A stretch of 64,000 nucleotides of DNA from Methanolobus chelungpuianus (GTDB lineage Archaea; Halobacteriota; Methanosarcinia; Methanosarcinales; Methanosarcinaceae). The position numbers were made by a program, and so were the translations under genes. This document shows positions 32,421 to 53,769 of this stretch, piece after piece (position 1 is the first letter of the stretch; each line of letters begins with the position of its first letter). The notes below the pieces were generated by a model. The model was given only the letters and a program-made list of their open reading frames with translations. It was not told the origin of the DNA and did not search any database. The stretch is taken from the NCBI RefSeq assembly GCF_024500045.1, contig NZ_JTEO01000002.1, positions 310,001-374,000 on the forward strand, read 5' to 3'.

Positions 32421-32508
32421 GCGGGGGTTGCCCAGCCAGGCCAAAGGCGCTAGGTTGAGGGCCTAGTCTCGTAGGAGTTCGTGTGTTCGAATCACACCTC
32501 CCGCACCA
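32421..32508 (+). tRNA. tRNA-Leu (anticodon GAG), copy 1, CCA encoded
   Basis: Acceptor arms GCGGGGG and CTCCCGC pair with one G-U. Anticodon loop TTGAGGG gives GAG. A long variable arm marks a class II tRNA. Discriminator A is at 32505 and the genomic CCA at 32506-32508. It lies 47 bp after rpoD. Confidence 0.95.
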
Positions 32509-32572: not shown

Positions 32573-32657
32573 GCGGGGGTTGCCCAGCCAGGCCAAAGGC
32601 GCTAGGTTGAGGGCCTAGTCTCGTAGGAGTTCGTGTGTTCGAATCACACCTCCCGCA
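32573..32657 (+). tRNA. tRNA-Leu (anticodon GAG), copy 2, no CCA
   Basis: The 85 bases appear identical to copy 1, starting 152 bp downstream. After discriminator A (32657) the genome reads CTA rather than CCA. A T7 run at about 32662 is a probable terminator. The repeat stops at the tRNA edges; the flanks differ. Confidence 0.95.
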
Positions 32658-32716
32658 CTAGTTTTTTTATGTTACAGATAAAATCTCTGTCAGCTTCTAC
32701 ATTTTCAGCGCGGGGA

Positions 32717-45539: not shown

Positions 45540-46943
45540 ATGCTGTATGGGGAAGGCGCTTTCAGCAGGTGCCGGAGCCTGTATCATGTATGGGGTGGTA
45601 CTATAAGAGCTGTTGTTTACAAAGGACCTGAGAAGGTAGCCGTAGAGGAAGTGGATGACCCGAAAATAGAGCATCCGGCAGATGCCATAATCCGGCTGAC
45701 CTCCACTGCCATCTGCGGAAGCGACCTTCACATGTATGAAGGCAGGACCGTCGAAAAGCCCGGCAAGATACTTGGCCACGAGCCGCTGGGAGTGATAGAG
45801 GAAGTCGGCAGCGCCGTCTATTCTTACAAGAAGGGCGACAGGGTGGTAGTTAATTTCAACGTGGCCTGCGGGCACTGCATGAATTGTGTCATGGGGTTCC
45901 CCAGCGCCTGTCTCACCATCAGGTCGGAGACTGCAGGAGGAGCTTTCGGGTATGCCAAGATGGGCAAATATGCGGGCGCGCAGGCGGAAAAGCTCAGGGT
46001 GCCCTTTGCCGACTTTAACTGCACCAAATTGCCGGGAAAGCCAAATGACAAGTGGGAGCATGATTTCGTAATGCTGGCCGACATCTTCCCGACCGGTTTC
46101 TTCGCCACAAAACTTGCATTTGTAATGCCCGGCTTCCCGGTAGCCGTCTTTGGCGCCGGCCCTGTGGGACTGCTGGCGGCATACTCCGCAATACTTCAGG
46201 GTGCAGGCCAGGTTTTCGTGGTGGACCACATCCCTGAGAGGCTGAAGCTGGCAAAAAGTATAGGTGCCATACCGATCGACTTCACCATGAGCGATCCTGT
46301 GGCGCAGATAGAAGCCCTCAGGGCCGAGTTCTCTGTCGTGGACACTCTGCTGCCCGGTGAGGAGAAGATTGAGAGCCTCATGTCCAGCATCTCGAAACTT
46401 GCCGGGAGTGCAGGCATCCAGCTTGACGTGGACCGGAGCGATCCTGTAAAGGTCATTCAGGCATTAAGGGCCGTGAATCCCATGGTCGCGCAGTCGCTGC
46501 TGCCTGGTGAAGAGAAAATGAAAGGGGTTATGTCCGGCATAGATGCTGTGGGATACCAGGCTCTTGACAGGGACGACCCTTCAAGGGAGAACCCCACTCA
46601 GGTAATAAGCGACCTGGTGAGGCTAATCAATCCAACCGGCCATCTTGCTTTGATCGGTGTCTACACTGCGGATGACCCGGGAGCTGCCAATGCACACGCC
46701 AGGAAGGGAGAGTTCATGCTGCCCCTCGGTGAGCTCTGGGAAAAGGGTATGACCGTGGGCACAGGCCAGACACCTGTGAAGAACTTCATAATCCTGCTCA
46801 GGGACCTGATAATTGCGGGAAAGGCCAATCCCGGTTTCATAGTAAGCCACAGGATATCCTTTGACGAGGTGCCGGATGCCTACAGGAAGTTCGCCAGGCG
46901 GGAGGGCGGCTACACCAAGGTGATAATAGACCCTGCAAAATGA
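45540..46943 (+). CDS. Zn-dependent alcohol dehydrogenase, formaldehyde-dehydrogenase-like, with duplicated insert
   Basis: A medium-chain dehydrogenase. The catalytic zinc site is near STAICGSDLHMYEGR and GHEPLGVIEEVG. The usual four-Cys structural-zinc site is reduced: CGHCMNCVMGFPSAC keeps several cysteines. VAVFGAGPVGLLAA (about residues 201-214) is the NAD-binding motif. From residue 251 to 334 there is an insert with two copies of a unit of about 34 residues. At 467 residues it exceeds the usual 380-400. The family start matches ATA 45603 rather than ATG 45540; the latter adds 21 unrelated residues with a poorly spaced AAGGA. Substrate unknown. Confidence 0.85.
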   Translation: MLYGEGAFSRCRSLYHVWGGTIRAVVYKGPEKVAVEEVDDPKIEHPADAIIRLTSTAICGSDLHMYEGRTVEKPGKILGHEPLGVIEEVGSAVYSYKKGDRVVVNFNVACGHCMNCVMGFPSACLTIRSETAGGAFGYAKMGKYAGAQAEKLRVPFADFNCTKLPGKPNDKWEHDFVMLADIFPTGFFATKLAFVMPGFPVAVFGAGPVGLLAAYSAILQGAGQVFVVDHIPERLKLAKSIGAIPIDFTMSDPVAQIEALRAEFSVVDTLLPGEEKIESLMSSISKLAGSAGIQLDVDRSDPVKVIQALRAVNPMVAQSLLPGEEKMKGVMSGIDAVGYQALDRDDPSRENPTQVISDLVRLINPTGHLALIGVYTADDPGAANAHARKGEFMLPLGELWEKGMTVGTGQTPVKNFIILLRDLIIAGKANPGFIVSHRISFDEVPDAYRKFARREGGYTKVIIDPAK

Positions 46944-47941: not shown

Positions 47942-48763
47942 TCATTTCCAGGTGATCCTGGCAGGTTCCCGTCCGGGAATGCTGCACACCTTGTACTTAG
48001 GATACCCGAACATCATTGCGTACTGCACTTCATGTCCTTCCGGCAGCCCCAGCTCCTCCTTCAGCTCCTGACAGGAGGATGCCGCTATCTTGAGGAAGCC
48101 TGCCCAGCAGGCACCCAGTCCGAAGGCGGGGGCTGCAAGCTCGAACCATGTAAGGGCAATGATGCTGTCAGTGAAAGCTATTGGATTTGCTGCAGCAGCA
48201 TGTGCGACAGCCACATGAGGGGCGCCCCGGCATATCGGATCCTTCCCGCTCTCATATGCAGCTATGAGTGAGGGGATGACAGGCTTAAGGGGATGCTGCA
48301 CATCGCTGTTCATCAGGCTGCGCATCCAGTCTATCGTAATGCGGGTGAGCCTGCGCACTTTTTCCGGGTCGTGGATGATGAGCCAGTGTACGGGCTGGTT
48401 GTTCATTCCGGAAGGCGAGTAGCGTACGATGTCAAGGATCTCCTCTATGGTTTCCCTGTCTGCCATTTTGCTCAGGTAGTTGCGTACGGACCTGCGCTGG
48501 CGCATGTAAATGCCCAGGGCTCCGGGAGTGATGCCCGGCTTTACTTCTTCGGCTATCTCCGGGTAGCGGGTACCGTATTCAGGGTATATCGCACCCTCAG
48601 GGCAGAAGGATTCGCAATTGCCGCATTTTGAGCAGAATGCTCCTGCCTCATCGGGCATGAATGGGATGCGTTCCTCTCCTTTCAATATAAGTCCCATAGG
48701 ACATATCTGCAGGCAGGTGCCACATTTCGAGCAGGTGTCGGGATCGATGAAGATAGTGGCTAT
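47942..48763 (-). CDS. Ferredoxin-nitroreductase fusion with apparent ATA/ATT start
   Basis: Two 4Fe-4S motifs, C-x2-C-x2-C-x3-C-P (CSKCGTCLQICP, then CSKCGNCESFCP), followed by a flavin nitroreductase domain (RRSVRNYLSK, RYSPSGMNNQPVHWLI). The first ATG (48697) begins only after the first cluster motif. The frame is open upstream to a TGA, and the natural start is at ATA 48763 (IATIFIDPDTC), 3 nt after GGAGTTGAT, a near-perfect Shine-Dalgarno. No ATG, GTG or TTG lies between. About 273 residues. It probably reduces a quinone-, nitro- or flavin-type substrate with low-potential electrons. Confidence 0.85.
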   Translation of the reverse strand: MATIFIDPDTCSKCGTCLQICPMGLILKGEERIPFMPDEAGAFCSKCGNCESFCPEGAIYPEYGTRYPEIAEEVKPGITPGALGIYMRQRRSVRNYLSKMADRETIEEILDIVRYSPSGMNNQPVHWLIIHDPEKVRRLTRITIDWMRSLMNSDVQHPLKPVIPSLIAAYESGKDPICRGAPHVAVAHAAAANPIAFTDSIIALTWFELAAPAFGLGACWAGFLKIAASSCQELKEELGLPEGHEVQYAMMFGYPKYKVCSIPGREPARITWK

Positions 48764-51242: not shown

Positions 51243-52106
51243 TCACGGGGGCATAATTTCTTTTTCAAGGAATCTTATCAGTTCTTTCTGATCAAATCCG
51301 GGCCCATGTACGTTATACTTCCCAAGCGGGCAGCGGCCTGTCCTTTCCGGGCCGTGGTAGTCCGAACCGCCTGTCTTCAGCAGCCCGTTTGCTTCTGATA
51401 TATTGAACATTGTCTCTATATGCTCGATTGAACTTTTCCCGTAAAATACCTCAAAGCCATCCACTCCGCAGTTTATCAGGGTCCCGGCAACAAAGGATAG
51501 CATGTCCATCCTCTCATACATTTCCAGAGTCCTGAGCAGGTGTGCACAGATAGCTATACCTCCTGCCTGATGTATTGCCTTGATTGTCTGTGCAGCAGGG
51601 AACTTTTTCATCTCTATGGCATGGGGTGAGGTCTCAGCAAGCCACTCGTAATGGAAATCATAGTTGCTCATTCCCTTGTTCACCACGGATTGCGCGATGT
51701 CGTGACGCGTTGGGATGCCGCTGATATGCTCAAGGTTTTCATGGTCTATGATCCATCCATGTGACTCAAGCATAGAACATACTCTTTCGCAATATTCGTC
51801 TGCATTGCTCTTTGCCTCATCCATCATTCTGAGGAATGTTTCCTCTTCCCTGTCAAATCCGTATCCAAGAATATGCAGTTCGATGTCGGGAAGCTTAAGT
51901 TCGCTGGTGAACTCGATCCCGGGTATGAAGGTAAGGCCTCTTTTCGCACATTCCCTTTCTACGATATCAAGTCCCCCGATGGTGTCGTGGTCTGTGATGC
52001 TCAGTGCCCGTAATCCCGATTCGTGCGCCAGTTTTACGAGTTGTGCAGGATCCAGATCGCCGTCCGAGAATGTTGTGTGTGAATGCAGGTCTACGATGTT
52101 CTCTAT
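51243..52106 (-). CDS. PHP-domain metallophosphoesterase with apparent ATA start
   Basis: Translating upstream of the first ATG (51827) in the same frame recovers the entire PHP N-terminus: DLHSHTTFSDG, ALSITDHDTIGG and FIPGIEFTSE, the metal-binding motifs of the PHP superfamily. The frame starts naturally at ATA 52106-52104, 5 nt after GAGGGTG (52118-52112); it has no ATG, GTG or TTG between an upstream TAG and residue 94. About 287 residues. Relatives hydrolyse 3',5'-bisnucleotides or similar phosphoesters. Confidence 0.88.
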   Translation of the reverse strand: MENIVDLHSHTTFSDGDLDPAQLVKLAHESGLRALSITDHDTIGGLDIVERECAKRGLTFIPGIEFTSELKLPDIELHILGYGFDREEETFLRMMDEAKSNADEYCERVCSMLESHGWIIDHENLEHISGIPTRHDIAQSVVNKGMSNYDFHYEWLAETSPHAIEMKKFPAAQTIKAIHQAGGIAICAHLLRTLEMYERMDMLSFVAGTLINCGVDGFEVFYGKSSIEHIETMFNISEANGLLKTGGSDYHGPERTGRCPLGKYNVHGPGFDQKELIRFLEKEIMPP

Positions 52107-52158
52107 TTTTACACCCTCATGAAAGTAAAGTGATTTTAAGAAAATATCAGCTTTTATC

Positions 52159-52166
52159 TATATAAA
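52159..52166 (-). promoter_or_regulatory. TATA box of the PHP gene
   Basis: TTTATATA on the minus strand is 53 nt upstream of the ATA codon at 52106. It predicts a start near 52137 and a leader of about 31 nt containing the GAGGGTG Shine-Dalgarno. This supports initiation at ATA rather than at the distant first ATG. Confidence 0.55.

Positions 52167-52229: not shown

Positions 52230-53769
<1,540 letters not shown>

Follow-up and report, generated by a model that had tools for sequence, protein, structure and literature searches.

A probable AUA start codon in a PHP-domain gene of Methanolobus chelungpuianus and a probable set of AUH starts in Methanosarcinaceae

By comparing orthologues, we found that a PHP-domain phosphoesterase gene of Methanolobus chelungpuianus is very probably translated from an AUA codon (position 52106), guided by a Shine-Dalgarno sequence (SD) and decoded by the ordinary initiator tRNA. 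The gene appears to belong to a set of Methanosarcinaceae genes, partly order-wide, that start with AUA, AUC or AUU (hereafter AUH). AUA initiation had been proposed for this gene in the initial annotation, and the comparisons support it, with ATA at the same place in 12 other Methanolobus species and ATC or ATT elsewhere. They also point to a start class wider than that annotation saw, comprising the three AUH codons and spanning at least the family. All window positions below refer to the 64,000-nt stretch of DNA that was analysed (positions 310001-374000 of contig C2 in the 2.6-Mb genome, G000), and the features are collected in Table 1.

Table 1. Features of the PHP locus, its companions in the window and the other candidate AUH genes
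Feature	Position	Strand	Basis or comment
PHP-domain phosphoesterase gene, ~287 codons from ATA	window 51243..52106	-	Pfam PF02811 and intact orthologues; AUH in both species
In-frame TAG closing the PHP frame upstream	52158..52160	-	sequence
Predicted ATA start codon of PHP gene	52104..52106	-	aligned column ATA/ATC/ATT/ATG in orthologues; onset of third-position bias
Shine-Dalgarno GAGGGTG, 5 nt before ATA	52112..52118	-	GAGGGTG/GAAGGTG in Methanolobus; other genera mostly have GAGGTG
TATA box TTTATATA	52159..52166	-	sequence; TATA-like element at same place in close relatives
Out-of-frame ATG-AGG-GTG-TAA across PHP SD	52109..52120	-	not conserved, hence not the start
P-II (GlnK-type) gene, upstream of PHP gene	52230..52562	-	PF00543
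amtB, ATG start (53769) behind same GAGGGTG as PHP	52573..53769	-	sequence
Ferredoxin/nitroreductase-type gene, ATA at start	47942..48763	-	ATG at same position in relatives; AUG/AUH swap, ATA in G000 vs ATG in G026
Dehydrogenase-like gene (zinc alcohol/formaldehyde type), GGGGTG followed by an apparent ATA start	45603..46943	+	unproven; TIGR02819 below cut-off
HAE3-type transporter	C2:307496		AUH in both species
Hexulose-6-phosphate synthase/RraA (Hps-RraA)	C2:82392		AUH in both species
Replication factor C small subunit (RfcS)	C2:245096		AUH in both species
Isopropylmalate/citramalate/homocitrate synthase-type gene	C2:668650		AUH in both species
LarA-type racemase	C2:197015		AUH in both species
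Gene with AUG/AUH swap	C2:397488		ATG vs ATC
Gene with AUG/AUH swap	C2:381155		ATG vs ATA

The PHP gene and its start region

The PHP reading frame (52157-51243, minus strand) opens after an in-frame TAG, and between this stop (52160-52158) and the ATG at 51827, which is codon 94 counted from the ATA, we found no ATG, GTG or TTG in the frame. The sequences encoding DLHSHTTFSDG and SITDHDT lie 5' of this ATG. The ATA is separated from the GAGGGTG by the spacer TAAAA, and the same GAGGGTG precedes the ATG of amtB. On all these points our reading of the sequence agrees with the initial annotation. From the transcript start inferred from the TATA box, the 5' UTR would be about 30 nt long. Since relatives conserve the codon as well as its SD and TATA box, the coincidence of an ATA with these elements goes beyond chance.

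The predicted protein scored above the cut-off of PF02811 (44.5 bits; cut-off 26.4) and matched solved PHP phosphoesterases and a 5'-3' exoribonuclease, with similarity over its full length to PDB 7ug9, 2yb1 and 3e0f. Similarity to NF041577 (3',5'-nucleoside bisphosphate phosphatase, 122 bits) and NF047791 (RNase RNM/AM, 114 bits) spans the length of the models. The conserved metal-ligand pattern is shared with PHP phosphoesterases of these types, but the scores are far under the equivalog cut-offs of 400 and 375, respectively. Across 19 PHP sequences, H8, H10, D15, H40, E65, H78, H189, D249 and H251 are invariant, and we take the invariant H, D and E residues to be the metal ligands of the family. 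The orthologue is intact in 18 of the 27 Methanolobus genomes. In another of them (G014, C33:5722-6547) it is disrupted by in-frame stops and found as two overlapping pieces (L025, L053).

Conservation of the start and alternative readings

Comparing the start codon among close relatives, a check suggested by the initial annotation, gave 20 comparable orthologues with ATA in 12, ATC in four, ATT in three and ATG in one. ATA occupies the column in 12 further Methanolobus species (G023, G021, G010, G026, G015, G009, G006, G019, G001, G025, G005 and G022), ATC in G012, G013 and G007, and ATG in G011. Outside the genus, we found ATC in Methanosarcinaceae UBA470 and ATT in Methanococcoides EBM-47 and two Methanomethylovorans, behind the SD GAGGTG (GAGGTT in one Methanomethylovorans) and with in-frame stops 3-4 codons 5' of the start. 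The orthologues of Methanohalophilus and G033 start with ATG, and that of G016 is ambiguous, with several possible starts including ATG. We also counted pairwise differences at codon positions 1/2/3. Among six close species there were 57/38/54 in the ten upstream codons and 86/60/398 downstream of the start, and among seven other species 55/58/46 upstream versus 90/72/585 downstream. The third-position coding signature of the gene thus begins exactly at the ATA codon.

Because the orthologues keep an AUH codon and the coding signature starts there, error, recent mutation and decay are excluded for the PHP gene. The initial annotation had offered a sequence error or a recent ATG-to-ATA change as its alternative. 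The nearby nitroreductase looks like just such a case, with ATA here and ATG in six relatives, but at the PHP start 12 independent Methanolobus genomes carry ATA and seven more genomes ATC or ATT, which leaves this alternative a practically negligible probability. We consider it extremely unlikely that the gene is decaying or that translation starts solely at the ATG at 51827 to yield a truncated protein. Standard gene finders would choose that ATG and one copy, in G014, is disrupted; however, the frame is intact in most Methanolobus genomes, and purifying selection acts on the first 93 codons, with 35 synonymous against 15 non-synonymous changes 5' of the ATG (comparison with G026). These codons also encode the invariant residues D6, H8, H10, D15, H40, E65 and H78.

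Another reading is that ribosomes begin elsewhere: they might use the out-of-frame ATG (52120) and then shift frame, or initiate on some other non-standard codon further upstream. In G000 and several relatives an ATG does overlap the SD, and an ATT or ATC stands immediately before the start column in some species. Yet the ATG is absent in eight orthologues (G026, G009, G006, G019, G001, G025, G005 and G022), so that a frameshift from it is excluded as a shared mechanism, while the codons upstream of the ATA bear no coding signature and the in-frame stops of UBA470, Methanococcoides and Methanomethylovorans lie close by. We therefore regard a start elsewhere as quite improbable, and keep the AUA at 52106 as the predicted start.

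The initial annotation had counted three apparent ATA starts within 7 kb, of which the PHP start held. For the nitroreductase, the aligned start is ATA in G000 versus ATG in all six relatives examined (G023, G015, G026, G013, G007 and G012), which looks like a species-specific ATG-to-ATA change; the ATA may still work as a start, or may mark a failing gene or a sequence error. The dehydrogenase start is unproven because an in-frame ATG lies upstream at 45540. We found this gene in one other genome only (G015); its start there is likewise ATA, with a canonical codon in frame 21 codons before it.

Candidate AUH starts in other genes

We screened contig C2 (694 kb) against the syntenic 940 kb of G026, that is one contig and one species pair, using the distribution of synonymous and non-synonymous changes to set the coding boundary in 528 orthologous pairs. 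In 14 of these pairs the first canonical codon lay inside the coding part. Of these first matches, eight were not kept: in six, an ATG stands a few codons within the estimated boundary, and the other two were C2:73094 and C2:381130 (a CGGC-type protein). After filtering, six clear genes from the pair screen or from follow-up lists carry AUH in both species, and three more carry it in one species (Table 1). For scale, pairs with a canonical start in both species comprised 289 ATG, 33 TTG, 28 GTG and 21 mixed. The six plus three AUH genes among 528 pairs (>1% of genes) are a lower bound.

A single-genome scan for an SD followed by ATA, ATC or ATT in the 136 genes that lack a canonical start combined with an SD was only weakly suggestive. 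In a loose test on all genes without a shared canonical start, AUN codons were not enriched behind SD-like motifs (ATN 13/126, GAN 24/214), because most such genes start outside the interval examined. The case for AUH starts rests on the orthologue comparisons, not on the single-genome scan or on this codon-box statistic. At C2:381130-381498 (minus strand), we noticed a short IAVIRCDIVSETCPG protein with no canonical start in either species, where the SD GCGGAGCTGAT precedes ATA in G000 and ATC in G026; this is possibly a further AUH start.

Wider sampling extended the pattern. The HAE3 transporter has an AUH codon at its start in all 25 sequences from eight genera (ATA 14, ATT 6, ATC 5, ATG 0), and LarA in 16 of 17 (ATC 14, ATT 2, ATG 1); many Hps-RraA orthologues have AUH as well. 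The isopropylmalate-synthase-type gene has ATT in 16/16 Methanolobus, ATC in G030 and G037, and ATG in G042. Its TGA-GGG-ATT is kept through most of the family, with an SD-like GAGG unusually near the ATT, and since the next codon varies (ATA, GTA, GCA), the ATT rather than that codon would be the start.

For RfcS, 38 of the 48 sequences have AUH without an adjacent ATG, and nearly all sampled Methanosarcinaceae have AUH at the start column, as do two more families of the order; GGAGGG or AAGGAGG precedes it at the usual spacing. The start region is preceded by a stop, either directly or one codon further upstream, in G027, G048 and G052, which makes an upstream canonical start impossible there. 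Some RfcS and Hps-RraA orthologues do have an in-frame canonical codon further upstream; RfcS of two other families has TTG, or ATG one codon earlier, and G033 and G035 have ATG at the column. ATG fills 3 of the 1056 cells in internal Ile columns of RfcS; at the start column, by contrast, it occurs alongside AUH. In the large-genome relatives G036, G032 and G027 (L285, L287 and L288), we also observed ATG-GAG-GAC five codons before the ATT, the ATG overlapping the SD; a gene finder would choose this ATG in G036 and G032, and in G027 a TAA lies between the ATG and the ATT. On trees, we counted seven AUH-to-AUH changes for the transporter (24 sequences), eight for RfcS and three for PHP, and changes between AUG and AUH numbered zero for the transporter and two for PHP.

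Proposed initiation, significance and known systems

The initiator tRNA gene (C2:68849) is ordinary, with A1-U72, a GGG/CCC anticodon stem and the anticodon CAU, and the 16S rRNA carries the anti-SD tail GGATCACCTCCT (C9:1559). No special initiator tRNA was found in G000, hence the simplest mechanism would be the normal initiator with a third-position mismatch; an altered initiator tRNA as the cause of AUH starts was discarded on the same normal gene. Elsewhere among the tRNA genes, G000 has unusually many tRNA-Cys(GCA) genes, eight in number (C4:192189, C5:108543, C6:262968, C6:285632, C6:286490, C6:288378, C6:290526 and C9:4891), with a cluster of four inside 5 kb of C6, and two adjacent tRNA-Leu(GAG) genes lie in the window (32421-32508 and 32573-32658, plus strand).

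We propose that pairing of GAGGGTG or GAAGGTG with the 16S tail would place the 30S subunit, and that the ordinary initiator tRNA (CAU) would start on AUA despite the third-base mismatch and insert methionine. The third base of these starts would then drift among A, C and U, rarely reaching G, and the weak start would probably be kept by selection, for low translation or for sensitivity to initiation fidelity (e.g. to aIF1). Initiation at AUA, methionine as residue 1, weakness and regulation are all inferred from sequence. According to work cited in PMC8211752 and PMC6237735, archaeal aIF1 discriminates against non-canonical starts, for which reason AUH starts should be weak and fidelity-sensitive.

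Whether a regulatory role goes with these starts is less certain. AUH starts may simply be tolerated through leaky initiation and kept by drift, which we hold to be a serious possibility, though short of an even chance. AUG/AUH swaps occur in several genes, and the AUH genes have no obvious common function, both of which fit such drift. The transporter start, in contrast, underwent at least seven changes among AUA, AUC and AUU, and never to AUG, across 24 sequences, where free drift should yield AUG. Since a freely drifting third base should reach G more often, this suggests selection against AUG at AUH starts. Our tentative proposal is that Methanosarcinales keep a class of AUH genes, among them that for the essential clamp-loader subunit RfcS, as a regulatory device through which translation would follow start-codon stringency (aIF1/aIF1A).

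Annotation pipelines usually allow ATG, GTG and TTG only, so that proteins with AUH starts, among them a biosynthetic enzyme and a core protein of replication, would be truncated or wrongly extended in databases. With more than 1% of the compared genes concerned, AUH starts may be routine in the gene expression of an important order of methanogens that includes tractable model species, and they would be natural targets for studying directly how archaeal aIF1 discriminates between start codons. The start-codon tallies of a published ribosome profiling study of M. mazei (PMC11456600) list ATG, GTG, TTG and CTG. In the open literature searched, we found no report of an AUA, AUC or AUU start in archaea; within that scope, a regulatory AUH class would, if true, be the first reported in this domain.

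In bacteria, infC (and pcnB) has an AUU start codon that is SD-led, read by the ordinary initiator tRNA, and weak enough to be open to fidelity control. The PHP gene would resemble infC in its SD, its ordinary initiator and its conserved codon of the AUH set. Unlike in bacteria, where few genes are involved and infC itself encodes a fidelity factor, the archaeal starts would affect several unrelated genes, the three AUH codons interchange, and the PHP product is of the phosphoesterase/nuclease type rather than an initiation factor. In Streptomyces, sigR has a GTC start codon repressed by IF3 (PMC5472188), likewise a non-standard start on a chromosomal gene; there, in a different domain of life and with a different codon, the start serves control by an initiation-fidelity factor, a role proposed here for the AUH starts. 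Finally, certain chloroplast genes (PMC9845219) have conserved non-AUG starts proposed to tune translation; these too are evolutionarily kept, but in an organelle and in other genes than the AUH starts described here.
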